NCBI GenBank assembly: GCA_016192985.1
Contig: JACPTC010000029.1
Coordinates: 1 to 41,872, forward strand
Direction: 5' to 3'
DNA from: Candidatus Woesearchaeota archaeon
GTDB lineage: Archaea > Nanobdellota > Nanobdellia > Woesearchaeales > GW2011-AR4
DNA: 41,872 nt
Below are positions 1,660-23,516 of this stretch, piece by piece. The notes under the pieces are model-generated. The model made no database searches. It worked only from the letters and a program-made list of their open reading frames with translations, and was not told the DNA's origin. The position numbers and the translations under genes were made by a program. Positions within the stretch are counted from its first letter, which is position 1, and the number at the start of each line of letters is the position of its first letter.

Positions 1660-1691
1660 GATGTGGAATTTCTAAATGAGCTAAAATTCAG

Positions 1692-1720
1692 TGCAAGCAA
1701 ATACACGATATTTGCTTGCA
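1692..1720 (+). promoter_or_regulatory. Perfect 12-bp hairpin in the EF-1A leader
   Basis: TGCAAGCAAATA (1692-1703) and TATTTGCTTGCA (1709-1720) are exact reverse complements around a 5-nt loop (CACGA). The hairpin sits between the likely transcription start and the ribosome-binding site, 15 nt ahead of GGAGG, where it could affect translation or mRNA stability. A DNA-binding site for a dimeric regulator is equally possible. Confidence 0.55.
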
Positions 1721-1752
1721 ATTGTATTAAATGTAGGAGGTTTATTTTAAAA

Positions 1753-3039
1753 ATGGCTAAAGGAAAACCGCATATCAACATTGTGTTTATTGGTCATGTA
1801 GACCACGGCAAGTCAACAACAGTAGGAAGATTGCTTTACGATACAGGCACTATAGACGAGCAAACCATGAGAAAGCTGAAAGACCAAGCAAAGGAGCTTG
1901 GCAAAGTGGGCTTTGAGTTTGCCTTTGTTATGGACAACTTAAAGGAAGAGAGGGAAAGAGGACTAACAATTGACTTGAGCCACAAGAAGTTTGAGACTCA
2001 AAAGTACTATTTTACAATAATTGATGCACCTGGTCACAAGGATTTCATTAAGAACATGATTACAGGCGCTGCACAGGCTGATGCAGCTGTCCTAGTTGTT
2101 TCTGCCAACCCCGGCGACGGAGTGCAGGCACAGACAAAAGAGCATATCTTCTTGGCAAGAACTCTCGGCGTAAACCAGCTTATTATCTACATAAACAAAA
2201 TGGATATGGCTAAATACGAGGAAAAAAGGTTCAACGAGGTTAAGGAAGAAGTTTCAAGGCAGTTAAAGCTAGTTGGCTATAAGATTGACGATATCCTATT
2301 TATCCCAGGCGCATCTTTCCCTGGGGACAATGTTGTAAAGAAATCTGAGCATTTGCCATGGCACAAAGGAGGCACTTTGCTAGAGACATTAGACACTATA
2401 AAGGAGCCTCAAAAGCCAACAGATTTGCCGTTAAGGCTGCCCGTGCAAGATGTTTATAACATAACTGGTATTGGCGTTGTGCCAGTTGGCAAGGTTGTAA
2501 CAGGAGTAATGAAAGTAAATGACAAGGTTATTTTCATGCCCGGAAGAGAAGGCAAGGGAGTGATTGGCGAAGTGAAAAGCATAGAGATGCACCATGAGCA
2601 GCTTGACGAGGCAGAGCCTGGCGACAATGTCGGCTTTAACGTCAGAGGCATTGAAAAGAAAGACATTGCAAGAGGCGATGTTATAGGCCATGTAAGCAAT
2701 CCGCCGACTGTTGCAACAGAATTCACAGCCCAGATGGTTGTATTGAATCACCCAACCGTTATCACAGTTGGCTACACACCTGTATTTCATGTACATACTG
2801 CGCAGGTTGCATGCCAAATTACGGAAATAGTCAAAAAGCTTGACCCGGCAACAGGCGCAACAAAAGAAGAGAAGCCGGACTTCATAAAGAATGGGGACGC
2901 AGCTGTAGTAAAAATCAAGCCAATACAGCCGTTATGCATAGAAAAGCAGAGCACTATCCCGCAAATGGCAAGATTCGCTGTACGCGACTCAGGCGTCACA
3001 GTAGCGGCTGGCATGTGCATTGACTTAGTGAAGAAATAA
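1753..3039 (+). CDS. tuf: Translation elongation factor EF-1A (aEF1A)
   Basis: A 428-residue GTPase that carries aminoacyl-tRNA to the ribosomal A site. G1 GHVDHGKS is at 14-21, the switch I threonine in GLTIDL near 70-75, G3 DAPGH at 91-95 and G4 NKMD at 148-151; two beta-barrel domains follow, ending at the usual family length. The frame is open back to 1663, but the ATG at 1753 gives the family N-terminus [15 protein letters not shown] and has GGAGG at 1736-1740, 12 nt upstream. Downstream come S10 and a hypothetical gene in the same direction, the usual archaeal EF-1A/S10 pairing, but with an abnormal 210-bp gap to S10. Confidence 0.98.
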
Positions 3040-3165
3040 ACATTTATTTTAAATTCCTTATTTTGAGGATCATGGTAAACTAACAATTATCATGAGGCAA
3101 TTAGTTGCTGCATATCAATATCATTAAAAACAAAAAACGTCAATGGCAACGGAAAAGTTGGTTTC

Positions 3166-3225
3166 GTGGAATCGAGCAAAGCGAAGATTCCACCTTTTTG
3201 ATCAAACTTTTTCACAAAAAGTTTG
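3166..3225. repeat. Two adjacent inverted repeats inserted between EF-1A and S10
   Basis: First repeat: GTGGAATC (3166-3173) with GATTCCAC (3186-3193), an 8-bp stem and 12-nt loop. Second: CAAACTTTTT (3203-3212) with AAAAAGTTTG (3216-3225), a perfect 10-bp stem and 3-nt loop. The second ends 24 bp before the S10 start codon. In archaea these two genes usually lie only a few bases apart, so this looks like an inserted repeat element. It could be a terminator, processing site or mobile palindrome; no other copy was noticed in the window. Confidence 0.6.
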
Positions 3226-3249
3226 TCGGCGTTAACTGACGAAACGGTT

Positions 3250-3558
3250 ATGCAAAAAGCAAGAATAAAACTGGCAAGCATAGATATACACAAAATCAAT
3301 GAAGTGTGCAGCTACATAAAAGACATAGCTGAGAAAACAGGCGTTGATATGAGGGGGCCAATTCCTCTGCCCACAAAAAGGCTTAAAGTGACAACAAGGA
3401 AAAGCCCTGACGGCGAGGGAACAGCAACTTGGGAGCATTACGAGATGAGGCTGCATAAAAGGCTTATTGATCTTGGGCTTGATGAGCGCGCTTTAAGGCT
3501 TGTCATGAGAGTTCCTATTCCTGAGGGGCTTAATATTGAAATAGAAATGATAGAATAA
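3250..3558 (+). CDS. rpsJ: Small ribosomal subunit protein uS10
   Basis: A 102-residue protein with the archaeal uS10 pattern: N-terminal [17 protein letters not shown], then RGPIPLPTK, a [11 protein letters not shown] segment, [15 protein letters not shown], and the C-terminal [13 protein letters not shown]. It is part of the 30S head. The frame is open upstream to a TTG at 3223, but that codon lies inside the inverted repeat and the extra residues are foreign to the family, so the ATG at 3250 is chosen. It follows EF-1A and is followed 11 nt later by a hypothetical gene in the same direction. Confidence 0.97.
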
Positions 3559-6567: not shown

Positions 6568-6608
6568 AAAAATAAAATCAAGGCTTTGCCGGGATAGCAT
6601 AACCTGGT

Positions 6609-6630
6609 ACATTGCCCAGCAATGCAGGAA
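6609..6630 (+). other. tRNA intron 1 (D-loop, position 20/21), 22 nt
   Basis: The central helix is CCTG (6603-6606, exon) with CAGG (6625-6628, intron). The two 3-nt bulges are GTA (6607-6609) and AAA (6629-6631). The inner helix is CATTGC (6610-6615) with GCAATG (6619-6624). Cutting after the second base of each bulge restores an ordinary D-loop. The outer helix is weak (2-3 bp). Confidence 0.8.
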
Positions 6631-6647
6631 ATTGCGCAGGCCTGGAA

Positions 6648-6662
6648 TACTCAATTTCAGTC
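6648..6662 (+). other. tRNA intron 2 (anticodon loop, position 37/38), 15 nt
   Basis: The central helix is CTGG (6642-6645) with TCAG (6657-6660), including one G-U pair. The bulges are AAT (6646-6648) and TCA (6661-6663), and the outer helix is the 5-bp anticodon stem. This is the canonical archaeal intron position; splicing leaves CTGGAAA as the loop. Confidence 0.85.
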
Positions 6663-6694
6663 AGCCTGTTTCCGAAAGGATATCTGGGTTCAAA

Positions 6695-6760
6695 AGCAAT
6701 ACTTAAATCTTAGGCATAGAGCTTCGCTTGTTGCCTGACTTAACAAGGTATTGCCGAAAG
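6695..6760 (+). other. tRNA intron 3 (T-loop, position 59/60), 66 nt
   Basis: The outer helix is the T-stem CTGGG/CCCAG. The central helix is TTCA (6689-6692) with CGAA (6755-6758), three pairs plus one A-C mismatch. The bulges are AAA (6693-6695) and AGT (6759-6761). The inner helix is 7 bp, GCAATAC (6696-6702) with GTATTGC (6748-6754). The intron interior can fold further (TTAGGCA with TGCCTGA). Confidence 0.8.
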
Positions 6761-6774
6761 TCCCAGTCCCGGCG

Positions 6775-6780
6775 TTTTTT
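6775..6780 (+). terminator. T-run terminator after the tRNA
   Basis: Six T residues directly follow the discriminator base, as expected for archaeal oligo-T termination. Confidence 0.55.
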
Positions 6781-6796: not shown

Positions 6797-7120
6797 TCAA
6801 TAAGCTCTCTCTTCTTCAATCCTTTTCTCAAGCTTTTTTATTCTTTCATTAATCCTGTCCAGAATTTTGTCTTTGCGCGTAATACTCTTTATTGAATCAG
6901 CAAGCTTGTTGTCCTTAAGCACATCCCTGATCCAGTTGGCAATGTCATTTTTCTCTTCGTTAACGTGATGTTTGAAAACTTCGTCTTTCATATAATTAAG
7001 GGCGTTTGACATCTCATGGAGGTTATGTATTATTGGCCCGTTATTTATCCAGAAGCACTGCTCTGGCTTCACATCTCCAAGTATCCTTTCTGCATCCTCA
7101 ATTGAAATTTTGTCAAACAT
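6797..7120 (-). CDS. Single-module DUF5752-like protein with coiled-coil tail
   Basis: 107 residues. Residues 1-70 form the module shared by this gene group: KPEQCFWINNGPIIHNLHEM, a second helix NALNYMKDEVFKHHVNEEKN, then DIANWIRDVLKDNKLADSI. The tail (NERIKKLEKRIEEERAY) is a short coiled coil. The pattern (F-x-L-x-N-G, then H-V-N with D-x-x-x-W-I, then LA) resembles Pfam DUF5752, whose function is unknown to me. It starts one base after the preceding gene ends, so translation is probably coupled. No membrane segment is present. Confidence 0.8.
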   Translation of the reverse strand: MFDKISIEDAERILGDVKPEQCFWINNGPIIHNLHEMSNALNYMKDEVFKHHVNEEKNDIANWIRDVLKDNKLADSIKSITRKDKILDRINERIKKLEKRIEEERAY

Positions 7121-7121
7121 T

Positions 7122-7421
7122 TTAACTGCTTAAAATTTCCACTATTCTCCTTAATATTATAATCTGGGTTTTGCACTTGTCCTTGCTCAGAAGCAAATCA
7201 TTTGCAAGTTTCTCGTCATTAATTGTACCTCTGATCCATGTGCTGAAGTCATTCCTGTAATCATTCACATGATACCTGAAGGTTTCTTCTCCCATGCCCT
7301 CCAGAGAGGAGTCAAGCCCCATAAGCCCCTTTACTATTGTGCCATTTGCCACCCTAAAATAGTTTTCAGAGTTTACATCCGACAACAGCCTTTTCCTGTC
7401 CTCTTCTTTTATTTCTTCCAT
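7122..7421 (-). CDS. Single-module DUF5752-like protein
   Basis: 99 residues, almost entirely one copy of the shared module: VNSENYFRVANGTIVKGLMGL, then EGMGEETFRYHVNDYRND, FSTWIRGTINDEKLAND and a C-terminal helix. It is soluble, with no signal peptide. It sits in the middle of a three-gene run on the - strand: 22 bp after the anchored paralogue and one base before the next paralogue. The function is unknown; tandem paralogues with one anchored member suggest subunits of one complex (inference). Confidence 0.78.
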   Translation of the reverse strand: MEEIKEEDRKRLLSDVNSENYFRVANGTIVKGLMGLDSSLEGMGEETFRYHVNDYRNDFSTWIRGTINDEKLANDLLLSKDKCKTQIIILRRIVEILSS

Positions 7422-7443
7422 TACTCCCCATCTATAATAAAAA

Positions 7444-8118
7444 TTATAATAAAAATTTTATATAGGCTAAACCGATTATCAGGGCAGCCAATAATCCAAC
7501 CAAAATGCCCTGCACAAATTCTTTTGAAAAGAATCTCGGCTCTTTTTTTGAACTAAGGTCTGCTAACTCCATTTCAATTCTGGCTTCTATCTCTTCTATC
7601 TTCTCCTCCCTCTTTGCGATTTCCTTTTCTTTGAGGAGTATCTCATCTATTTTTCCTAATGGCAGCTTGCTTTCATTTCCTGATTTTTCGGCGTCTGTGC
7701 TTTCCGCTTCAGGCATCTTCACCAACGATTTAGCAGAGCTATTGGTGAAGGGATAGCTTTTAATTAATTTTTTAGGCTCTTTGAGCTTTGTGGACATGCT
7801 TGTATTGTGTTTCTCTTGAGCAATGTCGAGCGCTGGATTTTTTACTTTGGCATGTGCAAAAAGCTTGGACTCCACAGCATTTATAATCTCGTCCTTTGAC
7901 TTGGAGCTAAAGATTGACTCCGCTAATTGCTCGTCTTTAAATATGTCCCTGACCCAGTTGCCAAAATCATTCTTATTTTCATTTACATGAAATGCAAATG
8001 TTTCATCATCTATCCCTTTTAGGGCATTGAGCAATTCATATAAGTTCTTTAGAATTCTGCCATTGCTTAGCTTAAAATATTCTTCAGGCTTGATAGCAGC
8101 ATCCAATCCCTTCCCCAT
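7444..8118 (-). CDS. DUF5752-like module with C-terminal membrane anchor
   Basis: 224 residues: one module at about 10-75 (KPEEYFKLSNGRILKNLYEL, then FAFHVNENKNDFGNWV), a polar linker, a charged coiled coil at about 150-195 (LLKEKEIAKREEKIEEIEAR), and a C-terminal transmembrane helix (about 204-223, ILVGLLAALIIGLAYI). Most of the protein should face the cytoplasm, held by a tail anchor. The ATG at 8118 has GAGGTGA just upstream and a TATA-like ATTTAAATA near 8160, so it probably heads the three-gene operon. The 638-aa coiled-coil gene lies just upstream on the same strand. Confidence 0.82.
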   Translation of the reverse strand: MGKGLDAAIKPEEYFKLSNGRILKNLYELLNALKGIDDETFAFHVNENKNDFGNWVRDIFKDEQLAESIFSSKSKDEIINAVESKLFAHAKVKNPALDIAQEKHNTSMSTKLKEPKKLIKSYPFTNSSAKSLVKMPEAESTDAEKSGNESKLPLGKIDEILLKEKEIAKREEKIEEIEARIEMELADLSSKKEPRFFSKEFVQGILVGLLAALIIGLAYIKFLL

Positions 8119-10433: not shown

Positions 10434-10478
10434 CCATCGTTTTGCCGTGGGCAGCGATTGTTAAAAAGAGGGGCGCAA

Positions 10479-13400
10479 TTGAGAGCAAATGTGGGTAATT
10501 TAGTATTGTTAGCTATATTCCTAGTGCTATTCACCACTCTTCATTTGCATGATTCTTCAGCTGTGATATCCATAAAAAACCCAAGCTATGTTGTTGGTCA
10601 GAATGTTTTAATTGATGTTAATGTAACTTCAATGGACAACCTTAGGCTGGAGGTTGCTTCTATTGATTCAACTTTTATCTATCTTGGAAAAGAGAGCCAG
10701 TTGACTTTTACCCCAAAAGTGCCGGAATTCTATTCGCTAAAGCTGATAAACACATCTTATGAATCAACAAAAGAAACCATTGATTTTGCTGTTATAACTC
10801 CAAAAGGCTCGGACATATTCACAGACAAGAAATCGTATCAGCTGGGAGAAACCGTTTTTATCTATGTAGGCTTGGAGCATTTGACATCCAATTATAACTT
10901 GTCTATAAGCACAGAGCGAGAGCTTTTCTACTTTCTAGGTGAAATTCAGAATCCTTTAAAGTTTGTGCCGCGAAGCACTGGAAATTACCAGATAAACCTT
11001 TATGGAAATGGCTCCATTGTGCAAAAGAATTTCAGTGTTGAGTCATTGGACCCATTTAAAGCAAAAAGAGCAGCTGTAAAAATTACCTCTCCAAAGAGAA
11101 CCTATGTGCTTGGCGACAAGGTTGAGCTCAGGCTCATATTTCCAAAAAATGAAAGCCTGCAGTTTTACATAACCTCAGGAAATAATGTATACAGGTATTT
11201 CGGAATTCCTGGTGATGTGCTTGTATTCGAGCCAAAGGAAAAGGGATACTACACGGCATTTATAGAGGAAGCAGGGATAACACTTGCTTCATATGCCTTT
11301 ACTGTGCTGCCCAAACTTATGCTCAACATAAGCACCATACTTGAAAATGTTGATTATTCCTTTTCTTTGTCTGAAAATGCAGTGATTCAGGTTGATTTCA
11401 TAAACTTATTGAAAGCCAACAGGAATATAGTTGAGATAGCTTTGAAATCATCAGTTTTGGAAAAAATCACAGCTTATATAGAAGGACATCACCTTGATTC
11501 TGATTTTGTTTTAAGTATAGAGCATGTAGAATACGATAAATTCAAGGTTACTATTCTTTCAAACAAAAACATACAAGAGGGAATTTACAGGCTTGCCGTT
11601 GTAGGAAGATACAACGATAAGGTCTACAAAAAAACTGCTCTTTTCAATTGGGGATTGACAGACGAGCAAGCTTTCTTCAGCGAAATTTCAATAAAAAAGG
11701 CTAAACTCAATAAAAGCATTGTCGTTGACAAATCAGATTACAAACTGGGGGAGCTTGTACAGATAAAGACTAATCTTTCCAATGCAGGAATACGCTTTGA
11801 TGGTCATATTTTCCCGCTTTCTTCAGAAAATGTGCCAGAACTTGTATTTGCGCCCCAAGCTACAGGTTTGTACACAATAGAGGCACGGGACGGCTTAGGC
11901 AATGCTGCGACTCAAGATTTCTATGTTTCTGATGTCGCAGCAGCTGAGCCGTTTTTTAACGAGAGTGAAATGCAGCTACAGGCAGAGATAGGAAAGCCCG
12001 TCAAATGGATGAAAACGCTCAAATTCAAGAATGCAGAGAGCATTGCAAGCACCATAACTTCAGCATTGCCATTTGAGTCAGATAACATAGCAATAACTTC
12101 AGGAGCATCTTCAATAAACAATTCTGTTGAGCTGTTGCAAAACAAGTCAATTGTTTATTTCAATGATAGCCTGCTCCCGTTCGAGGAGAAAGAATACTCA
12201 ATTGAATTCCAGACGCCGGCTCCATCAAAGAGCGAAAGTTTGGACATAACGCAAAAATCTGATGATAAAAGTGTAAAAATAACAAGCACAGCATCGGTGC
12301 ATTATTCAAATGTGTCTTCTTATGTTGATATTGCTGAATCAAAGCCTAAGCAAGTTAGAGTAATATTTGTTGTAAACGGAAGCGAAATTGATGTAACGAA
12401 AAACGCAGAATTCAACGTAACCCTTATAGACTCAAATAATAATGGTTTAGTAGATGAAGTAAGATGGGTTGTGCCAAATCTTTCTGAGCAATTGTTTAAA
12501 ATTAGAGTTATAAAAGCCGCTGACTTAAACTTGGATACAAAAGACTCAGGAAGCAGCACCAATAACGCGGATTACATCCTTTATTCAGACAATGTGTTGA
12601 TTAAGACTCAAGGCAACAAACTCCAGCAGCTGATAAATATTTCAAGGAAGAACGACATTGAAATAAGGCCAGTAAGCAAGAGCATCAGGAAAATAAGAAT
12701 TAATGATATTCAATTGGCGGGAGATGCAAACCTTTCTTTTGGCTTAGACGATGTCCCTGCAAGCAAAGACAAAGCAAAAAAATGGAAGAAAATTTTCGCA
12801 ATCGATCCAAAAAATATTGTGTTTTCTAATGGCTCTGTCACTGTTAATGCAACAGGAACTGAGCTTTACAAATGCAAAGACTGGAATTTTGCCGAGCAGA
12901 AGTGTTATGGAGAATGGCAAAAGATAATGGACATATTGCCGGGAACAGAGTACACTTTTGCAATGACAAAAGACGACCCCGGATATGCTGAGAGCGGATT
13001 GGCAAGTGTAAACACAAACAAATCTTTGTATCATCCAAATGAAGAGGTAAAAATAATGGTGGTGGTGCTTGACAAGGATGGCCATCTTGTAAGCGATGCA
13101 GACGTTGTTTTGAACATAACAAAACCCAATGGAACTTTTACAACTTTATTGACAAATGACAGCACAATAGTAGAGACGCAAAGAGGCATTTATACTGCCA
13201 AGTACCCAGACACAAGATTGGAAGGAAATTATACGCTATTTGTTAAAGCTACAGGCAACAACGTCAATAATACATTCTCCTCATTTTTCACAGTGAAGCA
13301 ATTTTATGAATTTGAAATTTTGAGAGATGCTCCATTGACAACCGACCCATGGAGAGGCCCGTTCACTTCTTCAATAAAAATCACCTCATTGACAGGCTCA

Positions 13401-16400
13401 ACAATATTTGATTTCAGCGAAGTGCTTCCAATAAATTTCACAGTGACAGATTATGGCGGCGCAACAGAGACAATTTCAGGTGACAAGGTAGTATTAACAT
13501 GGAACGGATTGAGCAACAATTCAGTTGTTTCATATTCAGCACGGGCGCCATTTATAACGCCTGAGCTTTGGGAGTTGGGAAATGCTTATGTAAAGTATGG
13601 CTCTCAAACTTTTACAGAGGCAAAACCATGGTTCTTGGCAGTTGATCCGGCTAACAGCGTTAACATCTCTACTCCAGATGCCGGCGCACCAGGCATGAAT
13701 CTTGTAGTGCAATTCATAGGCGATGATTTTGACTCAACAGACAATGTTACAGTAAACACAACCGACATTTTTATTGGTACAAAGACCATAACAGACCTTG
13801 CTGGCAACGTAGTCTCTGATAACGGAAGAGTCCTCACAACAGTCTTCTTCATCAACCCAAGTGCTGCTGCACAGGATGTCCAGATAAACATAAGCGGAGT
13901 TTCTTTGCCCCAGCCATTTAAGATTGTTGTGCCCACACGAGACAGCGGAAATTTTACTGGCTTGAGCGGCACTTTCACAATTGGCGATGGTAAAAACGGC
14001 ACAAGAACATCTGGCGGAACAATAGTGCTTGACAGCTTGATAATCCCTCAAGGAGTGACTGTCAATGTTTCAAGAAACGATCCTGATGGAATAAGCGGCA
14101 ATGGAAATCAAGGCTATTTGCCCGCAATGATTATTGTCGACGGCCCTGTCAACATTTCAGGAACGCTTGTTGTGAATGGCACAGATGGTTTGGCTTCTGA
14201 CGCTGGAGTAAATCCTGCAAATGGCGGCAATGCTGGGCCTGGCGGCGGCGGAGGCGGCGGAGGCGGTGTTCATGATCCTGGAGGTACTGCAGGCACAGGA
14301 GGAGACGGTTTTGCTGGAGGAGGAGGAGGATCTGCAAGGAGTGGCTCGGGCACTAGTGGCGGAACAGGAGGAACAGGCTCAGGCTCTACTGGAACAACAG
14401 GTTCAGGAGTTAATGGTGGTGAAGGAGGGCCTGCTCTTTCCGATGTAGACACAGATACTGGTGGCGGAGGAGGTGCAGGAGCATCAGACAGCGGTGCAGG
14501 CGGAGGAGGAGGAAGTGGTTATGCTTTTGGTTTAGGTGGTGGTGGTGGCGGAAGTTCAGGTGGAACAGCAGGCTATGGTGGCGGAGGAGGTGCAAGAAGC
14601 GGTGGAAATGGAGTTGGTGGTGGCGGTGGAGGTTTTGGAGAAGTAGGGACAACAGGCACAGGAGATGGCAGCGCAGGCGAGGGTGGACTTTTAACAGGAA
14701 ATTATACCTTAATTTCATTGATGGGAGGAAGTGGTGGCGGTGGCGGCAATTCTGATAGTGGCGGTGCGACTTCTAGGCGTGGAGGAGGAGGTGGAGGGGC
14801 AGGTGGAGCTGTTTTGATTTTTGCTACAGGAAATATTACTGTGACAGGCACTATAAATTCAAATGGAGGGAATGGTGGCTCTGGAGTTACATCTCAAGGC
14901 GGAGGAGGAGGAGGAGGAAGCGGAGGTGCAATCGTTCTTCAAAGTGCCAGGGTAAATACTTCTTCAAGCAACCTATTCGCTTTAGGTGGCTCAGGCGGCG
15001 CAGGCACTTCAAGCAGAAATGGAGGAGGAGGTGGAGATGGAAGGGTGAGGGTAGATGGTTTGAGAGAAGGCAATACCTCTGTTGAAGGGGTGCGGGGAGT
15101 ATATAATGGTTCCACATTTGTAGGGCCTTCTATCACAAATGTTAACTTTAGCCATGTCGCTGGAAGAGCAAATGTAAGTTCGACTGTTGAAGTTGTTATC
15201 CTTGACAAATCATCAAGAACTTCAAAATTTAATGCATCTGTTGATTCAAATGGCGACTTCATTGTTGAGGTTCAGCACTTCAGTGGATTGAATTATATAA
15301 CAGTAATACAAAATGTGAGCTCTGGCTTGTTTTCTGTCATGAGTTCAGCAGCTGCTGTAACATTCAATGCACCCATCCCTCCAAATGTAAGCAACTTGAC
15401 ATATCCTGCAAATGCATCTGTTATCAGCTATATACCAATACCTTTCAACTTTACAGTTCATGATAACCAGAATGTTACAAACTGCACTCTTTGGACAAAT
15501 TCAACAGGCACATGGAAATCAAACTCAACAATATTCCCAACTACAAACGAAAGCACCACTTGGAACATTACAGTGCCACAGCCTGATGGCATATTCATTT
15601 GGAATGTGCAATGCTATGACAACTCCACCCCTCAGCAGTTTGATTGGTTTGAGCATAATTATACAATAACCGTCGACTCGCAAGCACCTGTTGTAACATT
15701 AGATAGTCCTGCAAACAACAGCCTTGACACTGATCTTAATGTAAGCCTGAAATGCAGTGCCTCCGACCAGGTTGATGTTAGGAACATATCCATTTATACA
15801 AATTCAACAGGCACTTTTCTTGAGAACCAGTCTGCCATATTTTCAGGCTCAAGCGAAAATTCCGTGTCTTACATATTCAACATATCGTTAAGCAATGAAA
15901 ATGTTTTTGTGTGGAATTGTTTGGCTTTTGGAAACATAAACACCTCGGCTTTTGCAGCAAACAACTTTACAGTAAGGGCAAGGATACCAAGTGAAAGTTA
16001 CGTTGACATAACCCAATTGAGCAATGTTTCAAACAGGACAACAGGAAGAGGAACATGCATCGAGGACTACAATAAAAATGGATTGCTCGATATAATCCTG
16101 CTGGGAGACGACCAAGGCAGTATCAACTTGTTTAACAATACTGGCAATAACATTTTCAAAAATGACAGTGTTTCCTTAAATGCAGGTTATGGGGCAGCAG
16201 GCAGAGCCTGTTCATTTGGCGATTTCAATAATGACGGCTTCACAGATTTTGTCACATCAAGCGATTTGATTCTTTACAAGAACAATAAAAACCATACACT
16301 CAACTGCACGGACAGTGAAAATGACGCAGCATGCTCCGCTTCTGTTTTGCCTGTCACAGCCTTCACAGGCAAAGGCATACAGTTCTTTGACTATAACAAG

Positions 16401-19400
16401 GACAGCTACCTTGACATCTTTGCTCCGGATACAACTGGCGCTTACATCTTCAAAAATAACGGTGATGGAAACTTTTCTTTGGTAACTATTGGCTCTGATA
16501 CAATCGATGAGTACACCGCAGCTGCTGACTACGATGGGGATGATGACCTTGACTTGTTTGCTGTTGACAGCACAGCCCATATCATTTACAGAAACAACGG
16601 CGATGGCACATTTACAAAGACGGACGCCTCAACAATAGGATTGCCAAACAGGACAAGAGGCTCTGGAGAGGATGCTGAAGACTTCCAATGGGGGTTTGGT
16701 GATTATGATAACGATGGAGACTTGGACGTTTTTATAACTTCCACCAGCGCCACAGAGAGAAACTTCTTTGAGAATGATGGCGATGGGACATTTACTGAGA
16801 AAACAATAACAGCCAACCTTCCAACTGATGACGTAGGCACAAATCCTGTTTGGGGTGATTATAACAACGATGGCTATCTTGATTTGCTTGTGGGAGGCAA
16901 AGGCATATTCAAAAACAATAAGGATGGTACATTTAGCGAGGTAACTTCCAATTTGAGCATAACTAAAGTTCCCGATTCCGTACAATTTGCCGACATAGAC
17001 AATGACGGCGACTTGGATATAGCGGGGCAAAATAAAAGCGGCATAGTTTTGATTTATCGAAATGATATCAATGACGCAAACTATTTGAAAATTTTAGTCA
17101 GAGGTTTGGGCAATAAGACATATCATAATTTCACGAATGCAGATGCCATAGGAGCAAAAGTCAGAATTTACAATTCCAGCAGCAGCTTGGTTTGTTTCAG
17201 GGAGATAAGCGCAGGCTCTTCTTATGGGCAAGCTCCAAAAATACAGCATTGCGGATTGAAGTCAGCATTTACATACAATGTAAGCGTAGAATTTCCTTCA
17301 GGCTTGTCAACAAATGCCACAGTAGTTCCATCATCTGCAACCTTGGGCATAGGAGAGACAACCCTTATTCAAACAATTGAGGTTAATGAAAGCGAGGCTG
17401 CTCCAGCAACAATTTTGGTGTTGCCTGCAGCAAGCGATGTGGATTTGGATGGCTTGGACATAACTTTCGTTTGCAATGCAACCGATGACATAGACTTAGC
17501 CAACGTAAGCCTTTACATAAATGACACAGGCATTTTCAAATTGAACCAAACCAAAGTTTTTGATACAAACAGTGACTTGGCAAATTCTTCAAATTTCACT
17601 ATCAACCTTACATCAGGATTGTTTGGATGGAACTGCCTGACTTATGACTCGGCTGGAAATTCAAGATTTGCTAATTTGAACAGGACAATTAGCACAGGCA
17701 CGGACACCTTGAATGTCGATGTTTATGCGGATAGCACAATATACGGAACAAATGAAGTGGCCAGAATAACTGTGAACACCACCAACAGCCAAGCCGGACC
17801 GCTTAATGCCACAACAGCAACAGACATAGTTTTTGGTTCAACAACAACTCCGTGGTGGAACAGTTCTTTCACTTTTAGAAAACCTATATTTTTGCAGCAT
17901 ACATCAAATCACTCAAACATAACGGTGCAAATAAACGTGACAGGTCTAGGAGGCAACATTATTAGTTGCGTTAACGACACCAGAATAGTCAAAAACTATT
18001 CTACAAGCAATTTTTTAATAAACAGCACAATCTTCAGTGGAGACAATTCTACTTATTGCACCATAAGATTTAATGCGGAGATTGACACAAACAATGCAAG
18101 CAATTACCATGTTTATTACAAAAACAATACTGGCTCAAACCCTGGTTTTACCATCAGCCCAAGCCTCTTAGTTAAAACGGTGCAGAAAGGTACAGCCTCA
18201 TTACCCAGCACAGACACATCAATTGCTGTCAATATTACTGAAATCAATACATCAGCCTCTTTGCTGGTTTTCAATTTGAATGAGAACAATGCAGATCCTG
18301 CAAGCGGCCTCATAAGAGGGAACATATCCAACAGCACAACTTTGAGATTTATAAGATCGGGCTCCGGCAATTCTGTTGCAATTCAATGGTATGTCGTTGA
18401 ATTTGAATCTGGCGTAAATGTGCAAAGAGGAACGGCAACTGTTACAGCAACACCTCATGATATTACAATAAGTTCTGTCAACATCAACAAGTCATTCCCT
18501 GTAATTTCATGGAGCAATGGAGGTGCGCGCTATGGCAGCGATGATTTTGCAAGAGCAAATCTGACAAGTCCCACCAATTTAAGGGTCACAAGCGGCGCTG
18601 CATCAATAGACAACTTGGAATGGCAGGTCATTGAGTTCACAAGAGATGTTAGAGTACAAAAAGGCGATGTTAATTTCGCTTCTGGCGATTCAGTAGTTTA
18701 TTCTGGCATAAGTCCAGTAGATATAAATAAATCATTCCTCATAGCCACTTGGACTGCTTCAGGGAATGACATAGACTCGAATATGATAATGGCAGCATTT
18801 GTCAATGCAAGCAACCTTTCCTTTGAAAGAGAAACCACAGGAACTACAATAGGTCTGACATACTATGTTGTTGAATTCAACACATCAATAGTCCAAAGCT
18901 CTACAGTGAATTTTACGGGAACTAACACTTTAAAAAATATAGTAATAAACTCCGTGGACACTTCAAGAAGCATAGCCTTCCTTTCAGGGAGCCAAATGGC
19001 CGGTGGCTCTTCTGACTTTACAGCGGATGACAACATAGGAACGGGCTTTTACACTGCAAATGTAACAAGCGCTACAAATCTAGAATTAAGGAGAGGCACA
19101 GACACAGAAAGCGCTGTTTCAAATGCAACCTATTTTGTAGTGGAGTTTTATAGCGTGAATTCTGTAAAAAGCTCATTGGGAGACGAGCAGAAATTTTTGA
19201 TTAAAAACCTCAATGACACTGAATCTGACGGGATACATTCTATAAATTTCAGCACCCTTGACCAAACTGTTGGACTTTACTCTGTTGTTAGTGTGGCTAC
19301 TAAAACAAGTTATAGTGATGTAAAAGACTTTACCTTCTTCAACATAACTTCTGGTGGGGAAGTACCTGTGGTTACTGTTACATTCCCCGCAAGCGGCTCA

Positions 19401-22400
19401 ACTACAAGCAATGCACAGATAGATTTAAACGCAACTACAAGTAAATCAGCAACCTGCAAATATAGCACAAATCAGCTTTTTGATTATGACACGCAAGGCA
19501 CACTATTTACAACTACAGGGTCAACAATCCATTCAACAAATCTTGGAGCGCTTAGTGAGGGCAGTTACACATATTACATTAAATGCCGTGATAGCATAGG
19601 CAACACAAACGACAACAATAACCAAGGCTCAACAACCTTTACAGTAGATAGGACACCTCCAAGCATCACGCTGAATAGGCCTTCCAATAACTCTAATCAA
19701 ACAAGCGCCACTATAACCTTTTCCTGGACAGCAACAGACAACATCGACACATCAATTGCGTGCAACCTAACTGTCAACGGAGTTGTTGAAGCCTCTGATG
19801 TGCAATCCCAAAGCGGCACCCAAAGAGATTTTGCCATCGCCCTCTCCAATGGCAACTATACTTGGAATGTAACATGTGCAGACAACGCGCCCAACATCAA
19901 TTTCAGCGTCACAAACAGCTTTAGGCTCAATGTTGTGGACTTGATAGTTAGCATACAGACAGTCAATACGAGCTACAAGCAGAACAGGATTGTCAATCTT
20001 TCAAGGGTAAGGGTGGAAGAATCTTCAGATTTAGAAGCAAGCATACAAACAACATCTTTTCCAATTAACACCCACATATATGTTGCGAATGATACAGCGG
20101 AAAAAGCTTATTATGTCGAGACTGGGTGCAATGCGGGCACTGTTCCTCCGTCAGACGGACCTGACCCTACTTGCGGGGGTGCTCATGTCGAGTTTACAGG
20201 TACTGAGTACAATTCAGCATCAGTGAGCGATGATAACAGCGTTTCACTGTCATGCGGAGCAAACGACGAGGATTATCTCCTTTTCAATCTAAGCATTGAT
20301 GAGGATTTGAATTCCATAAATTCCATAAACTGGTCGTTTGAAGGAGCGCTTTCAGCAACAGCAGGCACAACGCTCAAATTTTTTATGTGGAACTACACAT
20401 CCAGTTCTTGGTTTAATTGCACAGGAAATTTGCAGAGCACAACAGACACATTTATCAATTGCATCTACTCAACTAATGTGACAGACTTCATCAATTCAAC
20501 CACCAAATACACAACTTTTTTGGCACAATGCCAAGAAACTTCTGGCAATGCAAGGACTATAACCAATGACTTCACCCAATTCGTTGTTAATTATTACACA
20601 AATAAGACCGATGGAAATTCCTCGTTTATAAATTATACATTTGGAGACAGCTCCAACAGGACGAAGCTCTCTGATATAAACATAAAAATCAATGTGATAG
20701 TGTATAACAATTCTGTTTCTAGCACAAGAGGCAATAATGCAGCGGATTTGCAGGTCCAATTCTACAATGGCACTAACTACACATACTTTGAGAACTGCAA
20801 TCTAAACAGCCTTGGTATGAGCGGCTCCAATATATCGGTGAATTGTTCTGTTACAGTTACCAATAAAACAATCTTGGCTGCATGGGCAAATTCCACAAAC
20901 AGGAAATTCAGGATTAGTGGAATAAATCTTGACCAGGCCAGAGAACTTCAGGACAGCATAAACTGGACTGATGTCTTTATAAGATTGCACACTCCATCAG
21001 AAATAGAGAATGTAGGTCCTGAAAACTTCACCAGAAGGCTTTTGCTTCAGGTATTCAGGAACACTACCGATGGCTTTGTTTCATATGAAGTCGTTTACAA
21101 CGACACTGTTACCATACCTTCCAATACTTCCAGAAACATCAGCGATTTCTGGGACACAAAGGGATTCAATACAGCTAATTCCCCATTAGGCTCTTATATG
21201 GTTTATGCGGCATTGATTGCTTCGGATAATTCTGTGGTGTTGAATGGCGACGATCAGCCATTGAACGACACTTATGTTTTCACTATAGATTACCTCAGGC
21301 TCAACATTACCTCGCCCCAGAACAATTCTGTCCAGGACGCAGCAGGATTTTTCATAAACGTCTCTTTGGAAAACATAACATTCACAAGCGGCGGCAACTG
21401 CAGCTATTCAATCGATGGACAGCCTAATGTAACAATGACAAATTCGTCTTCCATATCATTTTTTAATTTCACAAGCACAGTGGCGGTAGGTGACCATCAA
21501 ATTGTTGTTTTTTGCAATGACTCCTCAGGAGAGTACTCAAGCTCAAATACCCATAATTTTTCAGTTCAGGACCAGACATCACCTTTGGTTGGCTTGGTAT
21601 TCCCATTCAATAACAGCGAAGTTCCAACAGGCGATGTCGGCTTTATTTATAATGTGACAGACTTTACATCAAATATTACTAACTGCACACTCATTCTTGA
21701 CTTCCAGGACAACATAACAAACATAACTGTTGCGAAAAACGTAAATCAGACTTTCAATGTATCGGGGTTGCCAAACGGCCAGCACAGATGGCAGGTGAGA
21801 TGTACAGACAATTCCTCAAATAAGAATATTGGCTTATCCGATGAATTTGTATTTTTGGTTGGTGTAGATTCCTCTCCCCCTGTTGTATCTTTGACAAGCC
21901 CTGCAAACAACACATTCACGCAAAACAACGATGTTATTTTCAAATACACGGCATTTGACGAGCCTGTTGCAGCAAATATCTTGAACTGCACCTTAATCCT
22001 TAATAATCAGGCTAACCAAACCAATACCACAATCTTTACGGGAGCTGGCCAAGTAAACAATTTCACGCTGAATGATATGCCGGTTAGGGACTACAACTGG
22101 AGCGTGAACTGTACAGACAGTTCCCCGAGCAGGAATGTAGGCTCGTCAAAGACATTCAATATTTCCATAGGCCAGGATACAGATTTCCCGACGATTAACC
22201 TTGTTTCACCACTCAATAACATAACAGACACAGATGGAGTTGTCGCGTTCTCGTTTAACGTGTCTGACATTTCCGGAGGGATATCTAATTGCACAATAAT
22301 AATAAACGGGACGATAAACCAAACTGATACAACAATACAGGAAAATGCAGAGCAATCATTTAGTATCTCAGGATTCAATGACGGAATTTATAATTGGCAA

Positions 22401-23495
22401 ATCAACTGCACTGATGATTCGTTCCAGAGAAACTCAAATGGCTCGGAAATCAGAAACTTTACAGTAAATAAGCTTCTTGATATGAAAGTTGAAGTGACAA
22501 CAGATAAGTACTTTTATGAAAAAGGCACGCAGCTAAATGACTCAGCTTTTGTGACTACAACAACAAGGGACAGCCTAAATAGCTTGATTAATGCAACCGT
22601 CACAAGCGATGTAATAAGAGGCAATACAACGCTGAGCTGGTGGAATGCATCGTGGTCGATGAGAAAGCCCATTTTTATCAATGAAACAAGCACTGCTGGC
22701 AGAATAGAGATACCAGTTAGCGTCAATGTTACAGGATTAAATGGAAACATCAGCAACTGCAACAATGAAATCAGGATTGTTTACAATAAATCCCAGATAC
22801 ATGCAGTTGTTCCGAGAAAAATACTGAGCGGCGATGATTCAACGTACTGCTTCATAATGTTTTTGGCAAACACCACTTCCAATTCTGTCAATGACAACAA
22901 CTACCATGTTTATTACAATAACACCAATGCATCACCCCCAGAAGATTTTAACTTCACAGTGCAGGAATATGTTAATGCAACTTTTACTGAAAGCGCTGAA
23001 GGCTTTGTTTATGGAGATGATTTCTATGGAGGGACAAGCAATGCCGCTGAAGAAGACGGGGTGAGGGAGCAAAGCACAAGCTGCCCAGGCCCATCTGCAT
23101 CAAATTTCTGTTTGAATGTGAGCCTTAACACAGTACCAGACACAAGCGGTCCGTGGAGCGGCGGCTGGAATATGACATTTAACATAACTGAGCCAAATGT
23201 TCTTGTTAATATAACCTTTAACTTTAGCCTGATTTTGACAAGATTTACGGAAGTAGGGGAATCTATAAATCTGAGTTATAGAAATTTGACTAGCGGTGCA
23301 GTTGTAACCGCAGCAGTCATTCAGGGAGATGTAGGAAATCCTGCCCCTCTCAATGATTATGTGAATGGAACACTTAATTACACAGTTCTTTTGACAAATT
23401 CTGGACAATACTCCTTCGATGTTGGATGTGTCTTAACCACTGTTGATAGCACAAATGAGGTAGGGGCGTGCTATATCGACAATGAAATGAGGTAG
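10479..23495 (+). CDS. Giant multidomain surface adhesin, N-terminal fragment (4338 aa), truncated by a frameshift
   Basis: A signal peptide (NLVLLAIFLVLF, cleavage near DSSA) is followed by four ~75-aa Ig/MG2-like repeats (10.57-11.94 kb; pattern K-x-x-Y-x-LG-x-x-V, then F-x-P-x-x-x-G-x-Y). Next are an MG2-like domain near 13.0 kb, a glycine-rich beta-helix-like region (14.2-15.06 kb), Ig-like domains and VCBS/FG-GAP repeats (16.0-17.06 kb; FGDYDNDGDLDVFI) with an ASPIC/UnbV-like domain (17.07-17.38 kb). Then come DUF2341-like domains near 17.85 and 22.64 kb, four VVEF repeats (18.15-19.15 kb) and Cys-paired Ig-like repeats (21.58-22.47 kb). N-x-S/T sequons are extremely dense. TTG 10479 is chosen for its GAGGGG site; TTG 10458 is the alternative. 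The premature TAG comes from a 32-bp duplication; without it the frame continues to 31198. Adhesion or host contact is inferred. Confidence 0.9.
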   Translation: MRANVGNLVLLAIFLVLFTTLHLHDSSAVISIKNPSYVVGQNVLIDVNVTSMDNLRLEVASIDSTFIYLGKESQLTFTPKVPEFYSLKLINTSYESTKETIDFAVITPKGSDIFTDKKSYQLGETVFIYVGLEHLTSNYNLSISTERELFYFLGEIQNPLKFVPRSTGNYQINLYGNGSIVQKNFSVESLDPFKAKRAAVKITSPKRTYVLGDKVELRLIFPKNESLQFYITSGNNVYRYFGIPGDVLVFEPKEKGYYTAFIEEAGITLASYAFTVLPKLMLNISTILENVDYSFSLSENAVIQVDFINLLKANRNIVEIALKSSVLEKITAYIEGHHLDSDFVLSIEHVEYDKFKVTILSNKNIQEGIYRLAVVGRYNDKVYKKTALFNWGLTDEQAFFSEISIKKAKLNKSIVVDKSDYKLGELVQIKTNLSNAGIRFDGHIFPLSSENVPELVFAPQATGLYTIEARDGLGNAATQDFYVSDVAAAEPFFNESEMQLQAEIGKPVKWMKTLKFKNAESIASTITSALPFESDNIAITSGASSINNSVELLQNKSIVYFNDSLLPFEEKEYSIEFQTPAPSKSESLDITQKSDDKSVKITSTASVHYSNVSSYVDIAESKPKQVRVIFVVNGSEIDVTKNAEFNVTLIDSNNNGLVDEVRWVVPNLSEQLFKIRVIKAADLNLDTKDSGSSTNNADYILYSDNVLIKTQGNKLQQLINISRKNDIEIRPVSKSIRKIRINDIQLAGDANLSFGLDDVPASKDKAKKWKKIFAIDPKNIVFSNGSVTVNATGTELYKCKDWNFAEQKCYGEWQKIMDILPGTEYTFAMTKDDPGYAESGLASVNTNKSLYHPNEEVKIMVVVLDKDGHLVSDADVVLNITKPNGTFTTLLTNDSTIVETQRGIYTAKYPDTRLEGNYTLFVKATGNNVNNTFSSFFTVKQFYEFEILRDAPLTTDPWRGPFTSSIKITSLTGSTIFDFSEVLPINFTVTDYGGATETISGDKVVLTWNGLSNNSVVSYSARAPFITPELWELGNAYVKYGSQTFTEAKPWFLAVDPANSVNISTPDAGAPGMNLVVQFIGDDFDSTDNVTVNTTDIFIGTKTITDLAGNVVSDNGRVLTTVFFINPSAAAQDVQINISGVSLPQPFKIVVPTRDSGNFTGLSGTFTIGDGKNGTRTSGGTIVLDSLIIPQGVTVNVSRNDPDGISGNGNQGYLPAMIIVDGPVNISGTLVVNGTDGLASDAGVNPANGGNAGPGGGGGGGGGVHDPGGTAGTGGDGFAGGGGGSARSGSGTSGGTGGTGSGSTGTTGSGVNGGEGGPALSDVDTDTGGGGGAGASDSGAGGGGGSGYAFGLGGGGGGSSGGTAGYGGGGGARSGGNGVGGGGGGFGEVGTTGTGDGSAGEGGLLTGNYTLISLMGGSGGGGGNSDSGGATSRRGGGGGGAGGAVLIFATGNITVTGTINSNGGNGGSGVTSQGGGGGGGSGGAIVLQSARVNTSSSNLFALGGSGGAGTSSRNGGGGGDGRVRVDGLREGNTSVEGVRGVYNGSTFVGPSITNVNFSHVAGRANVSSTVEVVILDKSSRTSKFNASVDSNGDFIVEVQHFSGLNYITVIQNVSSGLFSVMSSAAAVTFNAPIPPNVSNLTYPANASVISYIPIPFNFTVHDNQNVTNCTLWTNSTGTWKSNSTIFPTTNESTTWNITVPQPDGIFIWNVQCYDNSTPQQFDWFEHNYTITVDSQAPVVTLDSPANNSLDTDLNVSLKCSASDQVDVRNISIYTNSTGTFLENQSAIFSGSSENSVSYIFNISLSNENVFVWNCLAFGNINTSAFAANNFTVRARIPSESYVDITQLSNVSNRTTGRGTCIEDYNKNGLLDIILLGDDQGSINLFNNTGNNIFKNDSVSLNAGYGAAGRACSFGDFNNDGFTDFVTSSDLILYKNNKNHTLNCTDSENDAACSASVLPVTAFTGKGIQFFDYNKDSYLDIFAPDTTGAYIFKNNGDGNFSLVTIGSDTIDEYTAAADYDGDDDLDLFAVDSTAHIIYRNNGDGTFTKTDASTIGLPNRTRGSGEDAEDFQWGFGDYDNDGDLDVFITSTSATERNFFENDGDGTFTEKTITANLPTDDVGTNPVWGDYNNDGYLDLLVGGKGIFKNNKDGTFSEVTSNLSITKVPDSVQFADIDNDGDLDIAGQNKSGIVLIYRNDINDANYLKILVRGLGNKTYHNFTNADAIGAKVRIYNSSSSLVCFREISAGSSYGQAPKIQHCGLKSAFTYNVSVEFPSGLSTNATVVPSSATLGIGETTLIQTIEVNESEAAPATILVLPAASDVDLDGLDITFVCNATDDIDLANVSLYINDTGIFKLNQTKVFDTNSDLANSSNFTINLTSGLFGWNCLTYDSAGNSRFANLNRTISTGTDTLNVDVYADSTIYGTNEVARITVNTTNSQAGPLNATTATDIVFGSTTTPWWNSSFTFRKPIFLQHTSNHSNITVQINVTGLGGNIISCVNDTRIVKNYSTSNFLINSTIFSGDNSTYCTIRFNAEIDTNNASNYHVYYKNNTGSNPGFTISPSLLVKTVQKGTASLPSTDTSIAVNITEINTSASLLVFNLNENNADPASGLIRGNISNSTTLRFIRSGSGNSVAIQWYVVEFESGVNVQRGTATVTATPHDITISSVNINKSFPVISWSNGGARYGSDDFARANLTSPTNLRVTSGAASIDNLEWQVIEFTRDVRVQKGDVNFASGDSVVYSGISPVDINKSFLIATWTASGNDIDSNMIMAAFVNASNLSFERETTGTTIGLTYYVVEFNTSIVQSSTVNFTGTNTLKNIVINSVDTSRSIAFLSGSQMAGGSSDFTADDNIGTGFYTANVTSATNLELRRGTDTESAVSNATYFVVEFYSVNSVKSSLGDEQKFLIKNLNDTESDGIHSINFSTLDQTVGLYSVVSVATKTSYSDVKDFTFFNITSGGEVPVVTVTFPASGSTTSNAQIDLNATTSKSATCKYSTNQLFDYDTQGTLFTTTGSTIHSTNLGALSEGSYTYYIKCRDSIGNTNDNNNQGSTTFTVDRTPPSITLNRPSNNSNQTSATITFSWTATDNIDTSIACNLTVNGVVEASDVQSQSGTQRDFAIALSNGNYTWNVTCADNAPNINFSVTNSFRLNVVDLIVSIQTVNTSYKQNRIVNLSRVRVEESSDLEASIQTTSFPINTHIYVANDTAEKAYYVETGCNAGTVPPSDGPDPTCGGAHVEFTGTEYNSASVSDDNSVSLSCGANDEDYLLFNLSIDEDLNSINSINWSFEGALSATAGTTLKFFMWNYTSSSWFNCTGNLQSTTDTFINCIYSTNVTDFINSTTKYTTFLAQCQETSGNARTITNDFTQFVVNYYTNKTDGNSSFINYTFGDSSNRTKLSDINIKINVIVYNNSVSSTRGNNAADLQVQFYNGTNYTYFENCNLNSLGMSGSNISVNCSVTVTNKTILAAWANSTNRKFRISGINLDQARELQDSINWTDVFIRLHTPSEIENVGPENFTRRLLLQVFRNTTDGFVSYEVVYNDTVTIPSNTSRNISDFWDTKGFNTANSPLGSYMVYAALIASDNSVVLNGDDQPLNDTYVFTIDYLRLNITSPQNNSVQDAAGFFINVSLENITFTSGGNCSYSIDGQPNVTMTNSSSISFFNFTSTVAVGDHQIVVFCNDSSGEYSSSNTHNFSVQDQTSPLVGLVFPFNNSEVPTGDVGFIYNVTDFTSNITNCTLILDFQDNITNITVAKNVNQTFNVSGLPNGQHRWQVRCTDNSSNKNIGLSDEFVFLVGVDSSPPVVSLTSPANNTFTQNNDVIFKYTAFDEPVAANILNCTLILNNQANQTNTTIFTGAGQVNNFTLNDMPVRDYNWSVNCTDSSPSRNVGSSKTFNISIGQDTDFPTINLVSPLNNITDTDGVVAFSFNVSDISGGISNCTIIINGTINQTDTTIQENAEQSFSISGFNDGIYNWQINCTDDSFQRNSNGSEIRNFTVNKLLDMKVEVTTDKYFYEKGTQLNDSAFVTTTTRDSLNSLINATVTSDVIRGNTTLSWWNASWSMRKPIFINETSTAGRIEIPVSVNVTGLNGNISNCNNEIRIVYNKSQIHAVVPRKILSGDDSTYCFIMFLANTTSNSVNDNNYHVYYNNTNASPPEDFNFTVQEYVNATFTESAEGFVYGDDFYGGTSNAAEEDGVREQSTSCPGPSASNFCLNVSLNTVPDTSGPWSGGWNMTFNITEPNVLVNITFNFSLILTRFTEVGESINLSYRNLTSGAVVTAAVIQGDVGNPAPLNDYVNGTLNYTVLLTNSGQYSFDVGCVLTTVDSTNEVGACYIDNEMR
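14218..15060 (+). other. Glycine-rich beta-helix-like region within the adhesin
   Basis: About 280 residues with runs of up to nine glycines and GGGGGSGG motifs, interleaved with strand-like segments such as GGAVLIFATGNITVTG and GGAIVLQSARVNTSS. Flanking segments (TIVLDSLIIPQGVTVNVS; GPVNISGTLVVNG) look like coils of a right-handed beta-helix. G-rich codons raise local GC well above the rest of the gene. Confidence 0.8.
16000..17380 (+). other. VCBS/FG-GAP repeats followed by an ASPIC/UnbV-like domain
   Basis: At least six calcium-loop repeats of the form D-x-(N/D)-x-D-G-x-x-D, for example FGDFNNDGFTDFV, WGDYNNDGYLDLLVGG and FADIDNDGDLDIAG, suggest a beta-propeller. The following ~100 residues (YLKILVRGLGNK, DAIGAKVRIYN, REISAGSSYG, VEFPSGL) match the ASPIC/UnbV pattern that often follows such repeats. 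Confidence 0.8.
18146..19150 (+). repeat. Four ~80-residue VVEF protein repeats
   Basis: Four consecutive copies end in WYVVEF, WQVIEF, YYVVEF and YFVVEF; most begin with a VQ-(R/K/S)-G-like motif and contain an I-x-x-V-(D/N)-x-x-(K/R)-S core. They are protein-level repeats with diverged DNA. Confidence 0.75.
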
Positions 23496-23516
23496 GGGCG
23501 TGCTATATCGACAATG
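23453..23516 (+). repeat. Exact 32-bp tandem duplication that splits the giant adhesin ORF
   Basis: Bases 23453-23484 are repeated exactly at 23485-23516. Because 32 is not a multiple of 3, the second copy shifts the frame and creates the TAG at 23493-23495. Reading only one copy gives ...VGACYIDN-VRIFVNG..., joining the two long ORFs without a break. Confidence 0.97.

Follow-up and report, generated by a model that had tools for sequence, protein, structure and literature searches.

The window analysed here is a 41,872-nt contig from a 1.26 Mb, 77% complete MAG of a Woesearchaeota archaeon. It includes a locus at which a tRNA-Ser(GGA) gene appears to be cut three times. The questions raised are whether this is a functional tRNA gene, which enzyme would process it, and what its longest intron, which carries an extended complement of 16S rRNA, might do once it has been removed.

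A tRNA-Ser(GGA) gene with three introns

In unspliced form, the window gave no tRNA with ARAGORN and none with Rfam, and the gene was also missed by a tRNA model run on the whole genome, in keeping with the original prediction that the gene could leave the genome apparently lacking this tRNA. Removal of the three introns listed in Table 1, the boundaries of which had been predicted exactly to the base, gives the expected 84-nt tRNA-Ser(GGA) (GCCGGGATAGCATAACCTGGTATTGCGCAGGCCTGGAAAGCCTGTTTCCGAAAGGATATCTGGGTTCAAATCCCAGTCCCGGCG). The spliced form, called as tRNA-Ser(gga) by ARAGORN, has an acceptor stem of 7 bp, a D-stem of 3 bp, an anticodon stem of 5 bp, a T-stem of 5 bp, a long variable arm (TCC-GAAA-GGA), the GGA anticodon and the G73 discriminator at 6774; CCA is not encoded. 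The call requires that the D-loop and T-loop introns be removed, the 37/38 intron being tolerated by ARAGORN, and when fewer introns are removed either nothing or a false tRNA-Cys is reported.

Table 1. Positions of the tRNA-Ser(GGA) gene, its exons and introns, and associated elements in the window.
Feature	Position	Strand	Evidence or remarks
TATA-like promoter element TTTATAAA	6558..6565	+	Conserved in most relatives; putative role
tRNA-Ser(GGA) gene, three introns	6588..6774	+	Spliced form called by ARAGORN; same-genus orthologues
Exon 1, positions 1-20	6588..6608	+	Joined to exon 2 without break in G001
Intron 1, 22 nt, D-loop 20/21	6609..6630	+	Absent from G001 and G003; BHB CCTG 6603-6606 / CAGG 6625-6628
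Exon 2, positions 21-37, anticodon GGA	6631..6647	+	ARAGORN on spliced form
Intron 2, 15 nt, canonical 37/38, relaxed BHB	6648..6662	+	Absent from G001; CTGG 6642-6645 / TCAG 6657-6660
Exon 3, positions 38-59, variable arm and 5' part of T-arm	6663..6694	+	ARAGORN on spliced form
Intron 3, 66 nt, T-loop 59/60	6695..6760	+	BHB TTCA 6689-6692 / CGAA 6755-6758
Antisense element, pairing with 16S 1088-1110 over 23 contiguous bases (two G-U pairs)	6723..6745	+	Antisense scan; E. coli numbering by alignment
Antisense core GTTGCCTGACTTAACA, all Watson-Crick pairs with 16S 1088-1103	6730..6745	+	Fully paired in 16 genomes, exact in 14
Exon 4, positions 60-73	6761..6774	+	ARAGORN on spliced form
T-run after gene, probable terminator	6775..6780	+	Sequence; putative

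Each intron is bounded by a bulge-helix-bulge (BHB) motif of the form originally described. The central helix is fully paired in intron 1 (4/4, with an inner helix of 6 bp) and in intron 2 (4/4, with one G-U), and 3/4 positions pair in intron 3 (inner helix of 9 bp), where an A-C mismatch is found; most relatives have TGAA at this place, which restores 4/4 pairs. Introns are located at exactly 20/21, 37/38 and 59/60 in eight Woesearchaeota of the same genus (G002, G005, G011, G012, G015, G016, G017 and G018), and the sequences of these introns, which have diverged independently, differ at most positions. G001 has neither intron 1 nor intron 2 and contains only the T-loop intron, and its positions 1-70 align without a break at 99% identity. 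As the same sites are used in eight relatives, and G001 lacks the first two introns while its exons are 99% identical, the three introns and their boundaries are, as judged by sequence comparison, real and far beyond chance.

When the spliced tRNA was used as the query, matches were found in 58 of the 59 related genomes, many of these being other tRNA-Ser isoacceptors. The T-loop is uninterrupted in G053, G058 and G038, and the intron sets of other members include sites at about 8/9 or 9/10, about 29/30, 37/38 and 59/60. In G057, a member of another family (locus L042), the D-loop motif is TCTG/CAGA as compared with CCTG/CAGG in the window, a compensatory change. The presence of a tRNA-Ser(GGA) with three BHB introns in a DPANN genome is thus supported by relatives carrying the same introns, though the case is not as singular as first supposed, since multi-intron tRNA-Ser genes are found family-wide. 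The tRNA-Ser(GGA) genes of G057 and of G040 (L167), likewise of other families, combine 20/21 and 37/38 introns, so that these positions recur beyond the family, and a short T-loop intron is present also in the tRNA-Ser(TGA) of G008 (L041).

A search of the part of the 77% complete MAG that was covered revealed no second tRNA-Ser(GGA), the ordinary copy that might have replaced this one. In most relatives, an element of the TTTATAAA type precedes the tRNA by ~25-30 nt. The EF-1alpha and uS10 genes are at 1663-3558 in the window, and the uS10 gene adjoins the tRNA-Ser in several relatives (read as reverse complement), which agrees with the archaeal gene order EF-1alpha, S10, tRNA-Ser. The best explanation is that the locus is the functional tRNA-Ser(GGA) gene.

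Multi-intron tRNA genes of Thermoproteales, such as those of Pyrobaculum, were reportedly described by Sugahara in 2007/2008 and are reviewed in PMC4090602 and PMC8450103. Excerpts of PMC8450103 give up to three introns per tRNA gene in this group. Introns at 20/21, 37/38 and 59/60 are known from archaea. The gene in the window resembles those described there in having up to three BHB introns at known positions, and differs from them, as far as the excerpts go, in belonging to a DPANN lineage with a single EndA-type gene and in the conserved rRNA antisense of its T-loop intron. Triple-intron tRNAs are thereby extended to Woesearchaeota.

The tRNA model gave only 12-25 tRNA-like matches per genome in G000, G002, G009 and G016 (12 in G016, which is 93% complete), and most ARAGORN hits in these tRNA sets have introns. 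Many tRNAs of these genomes are probably hidden by several introns, which would explain why Woesearchaeota genomes seem to lack tRNAs. The tRNA-Ser(GGA) at L171 (G023:C31:17600-18150) seems to have four interruptions: one near 29/30, one each at 37/38 and 59/60, and one in the loop of the variable arm. The variable-arm insert is a palindromic repeat; if it is spliced, the gene would exceed the three introns reported as the maximum.

Splicing endonuclease and ligase

Three introns in one tRNA had been taken to imply an endonuclease of broad specificity, with the alpha2beta2 and epsilon2 forms as the candidates. EndA is indeed present in the source genome, as a 198-aa single-unit alpha-type protein with N. 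equitans 3iey_A and M. jannaschii 1a79 as its nearest solved relatives, but the broad-specificity types were not borne out. Nearly every family genome has one PF01974 gene with a frame of ~190-270 aa; in G013, two catalytic-type copies were found. No convincing Pfam hit for a second endonuclease subunit was obtained in the family genomes, including those that are 93-99% complete, and neither a second structural subunit nor a fused three-unit protein was identified. Another weak endonuclease hit (C33) does not resemble such an enzyme. Given a single catalytic EndA-type gene without a detectable second subunit, the family endonuclease looks by gene content like the alpha4 type, which is described as strict.

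In excerpts of PMC4090602, multiple and relaxed introns are tied to alpha2beta2 enzymes and strictness to the alpha4 and alpha2 forms. Either a divergent partner was missed, for instance a beta subunit that Pfam models no longer recognise, or all three sites are processed by an enzyme encoded by a single gene. ARMAN-2 (Micrarchaeum) is comparable in that it is an ultrasmall archaeon with diverse tRNA introns, but its endonuclease is of the epsilon2 type (PMC12397907), in contrast to the single-unit alpha-type protein found here.

RtcB is encoded by 30 of the 36 family genomes and is missing from the 77% complete source MAG. The RtcB frames of G001, G003, G006, G010, G016, G019, G025 and G033 are interrupted by stops or a large insertion, those of G019 and G025 being 992-1021 aa long. 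Inteins are one possible cause of these interruptions, BHB introns within the ligase gene another.

Complementarity of the T-loop intron to 16S rRNA

The original prediction dealt with the introns only, and the 16S-complementary core of the third intron had no part in it. When the T-loop introns were compared, the block GTTGCCTGACTTAACA was found to be near-invariant, and it is the exact complement of U1088-C1103 of archaeal 16S rRNA (E. coli numbering, by alignment to rrsB). As the source MAG includes no 16S gene, the target sequence was taken from its genus: the 16S rRNA of G016 and G019 reads CCTGTTAAGTCAGGCAACGAGCGAGACC, the paired part of which corresponds to E. coli 1088-1110, and the target stretch of these two genes is CCTGTTAAGTCAGGCAACGAGCGAG, of which the block is the complement. 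This target sequence is common to most 16S genes examined.

Sixteen genomes from four genera carry the element, namely 14 with the exact core together with G005 and G015. The set was gathered partly via the motif itself, G005 and G015 having come from the exon search, and core-less introns found in the same way are reported below. In anchored columns, 18 consecutive intron positions opposite 1088-1105 are paired in 16/16 genomes. Most of the paired columns reach ~2 bits, whereas those just 5' are below 0.7 bit, and on the 3' side one column of 1.05 bits is followed by ~0.2 bit. At both edges, the conserved block thus ends within one or two bases of the 16S complementarity. All core substitutions are compatible with pairing: G1104 faces U or C, and A is replaced by G opposite U1095 in G005 and opposite U1090 in G015. 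Because the 16S target does not vary, two-sided covariation is not visible. Outside the 18-nt antisense the intron is saturated with changes, whereas the antisense itself is conserved in all four genera.

Among the 353 genomes of the order, 14 contain the exact core followed by a base other than the one found in 16S; all 14 belong to one family, with one copy in each and always in the T-loop intron of tRNA-Ser(GGA); the reversed-pattern control gave zero hits in the same 353 genomes. A context pattern run over the GTDB collection gave 11 hits, all in Woesearchaeota/Nanoarchaeota and most from groundwater isolates. A looser scan of the order that allowed G-U pairs gave 18 further hits, and the 14 examined with context were non-tRNA DNA or 16S itself.

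For core-bearing introns, this 16S site gives the longest antisense run (in G005, once G-U pairs are allowed). In the other introns, and in T-loop introns without the core, runs extend to only 7-10 Watson-Crick pairs, except for one AT-rich run of 14. Net binding to 16S is predicted at -12 to -18 kcal/mol for five core-bearing introns, as against 0 to -1.6 for three without the core. G019, G025, G028, G029, G032 and G035 have T-loop introns that lack the core and pair with 16S no better than shuffles do. The existence of such introns means that the core is an added feature that can be absent and not a need of splicing, and any antisense function would accordingly be dispensable or replaced in these six.

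An antisense scan of the other tRNA loci of G000, G002, G009 and G016 found only a REP-like palindrome and AT-rich runs. The palindrome scored because the 16S gene of G016 itself contains it. This palindrome, TGTGAGCGAGTTCGCAACGAGCTCACTCGCA, recurs whole or in part in the genomes of L170, L001, L018, L088 and L171, and is located both inside the G016 16S gene (L170) and in the variable arm of a tRNA-Ser.

A proposed role for the excised T-loop intron

The conserved complementarity suggests, at the level of sequence, that a discarded intron acts on the ribosome. In the mechanism proposed, EndA would cut the pre-tRNA at the three BHB motifs and the four exons would be ligated to give tRNA-Ser(GGA), leaving the T-loop intron to take on a second job in this lineage. 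EndA is known to release archaeal tRNA introns at BHB motifs, and circular forms of many have been found (PMC12558985; PMC7994747); the freed 66-nt intron would probably be circularised likewise. It would then expose an antisense of 18-23 nt able to pair with 16S 1088-1105/1110, which spans h35-h37 in the 3' major (head) domain. This region is presumably helical in the mature 30S (h35/h37), and binding of the intron must therefore compete with these helices. The likeliest target would be nascent or unassembled 16S rRNA, and maturation of tRNA-Ser may in this way be coupled via the intron to 30S production. We thus think it probable that the excised and perhaps circular intron serves as an antisense RNA on 16S, most likely as an assembly chaperone or an assembly-stage regulator.

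The same pairing could also act in cis. Free 16S rRNA might bind the intron within the pre-tRNA and block or promote splicing, tuning the supply of tRNA-Ser(GGA) to ribosome assembly; in the window, no more than ~35 nt separate the core from either T-loop splice site, and the predicted pairing disrupts the intron helix beside the BHB. A free intron acting in trans accounts for the same data, however, and a sensor in cis is judged unlikely.

Guidance of 16S modification, by box C/D 2'-O-methylation or H/ACA pseudouridylation, has a precedent in the Haloferax tRNA-Trp intron, which is a box C/D guide (PMC7994747), and archaeal guides target rRNA. Nevertheless, RTGATGA is absent within one mismatch from 12 of the 16 introns, no CTGA box lies just 3' of the core, and the sole shared CTGA is inside the core and lost in G005. 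The T-loop intron hits no Rfam family at gathering or permissive thresholds. It is therefore not assigned to the box C/D sRNAs, which have box C (RUGAUGA) and box D (CUGA) next to the guide, nor to the H/ACA sRNAs, as the duplex is contiguous over 18 or more pairs and is not split around an unpaired U-N of the target. A role as a guide of either known kind is quite unlikely, and a guide of another type is conceivable.

It might further be argued that the gene is an ordinary multi-intron tRNA, with the core kept for splicing or intron folding and the 16S match coincidental. Part of the core, UGCCUGA, does pair intramolecularly, its partner being UUAGGCA in the window and, in several relatives, a similar GGCA, but this partner is not conserved (at most ~0.5 bit at offsets -24 to -9) and the CTTAACA half of the core is without a partner in most folds. 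By a simple estimate, a perfect 16-nt match to any rRNA is expected ~1e-4 times per intron, and neither the coincident ends of conservation and complementarity nor the occurrence of core-less T-loop introns fits this account, which is considered very unlikely. Lowest in probability is an inhibitory antisense inactivating 16S or 30S, either the cell's own in dormancy or that of a host archaeon, given that archaea widely share the target. Neither export nor a growth-phase switch is hinted at, and this reading is purely inferential.

An antisense RNA assisting 16S assembly has several partial parallels. Like the haloarchaeal and Pyrococcus tRNA-Trp intron sR50, the Woesearchaeota intron would have a second, base-pairing function, but sR50 is a box C/D RNA that targets its own tRNA (PMC7994747), whereas the intron described here has no box C/D arrangement and matches 16S. 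Archaeal C/D sRNAs have been proposed as rRNA-folding chaperones, small RNAs that pair with 16S domain III during assembly; these are dual-guide C/D RNPs (PMC7994747), in contrast to the single long antisense within an intron. Yeast fitRNAs (Nostramo 2025, via excerpts of PMC13247085) are likewise freed tRNA introns acting by complementarity, though the targets given there are mRNAs, while the rRNA target here is conserved across archaeal genera. Three introns per tRNA, a tRNA intron with guide function (tRNA-Trp) and yeast introns acting on mRNAs are hence already known, and the open-licence literature searched yielded no account of an rRNA antisense within a tRNA intron. That a tRNA intron doubling as a conserved 16S antisense, outside box C/D and H/ACA, represents a new class of intron-derived, ribosome-directed RNA, one that ties the splicing of tRNA to assembly of the small subunit in a DPANN family, is put at slightly better than even. 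The persistence of archaeal tRNA introns and the role of their circles become directly testable questions with the 18-nt 16S antisense, which offers a candidate tRNA intron maintained for its action in trans on the ribosome.

Elsewhere in the window, a short motif resembling DUF5752 (about kNDFsnWVRdvFkd) recurs several times among neighbouring proteins at 6797-8118 and 33734-35005. Two adjacent giant frames of 4345 and 2560 aa, at 10458-23495 and 23516-31198, include many repeated N-rich domains and probably encode one or two giant surface proteins.
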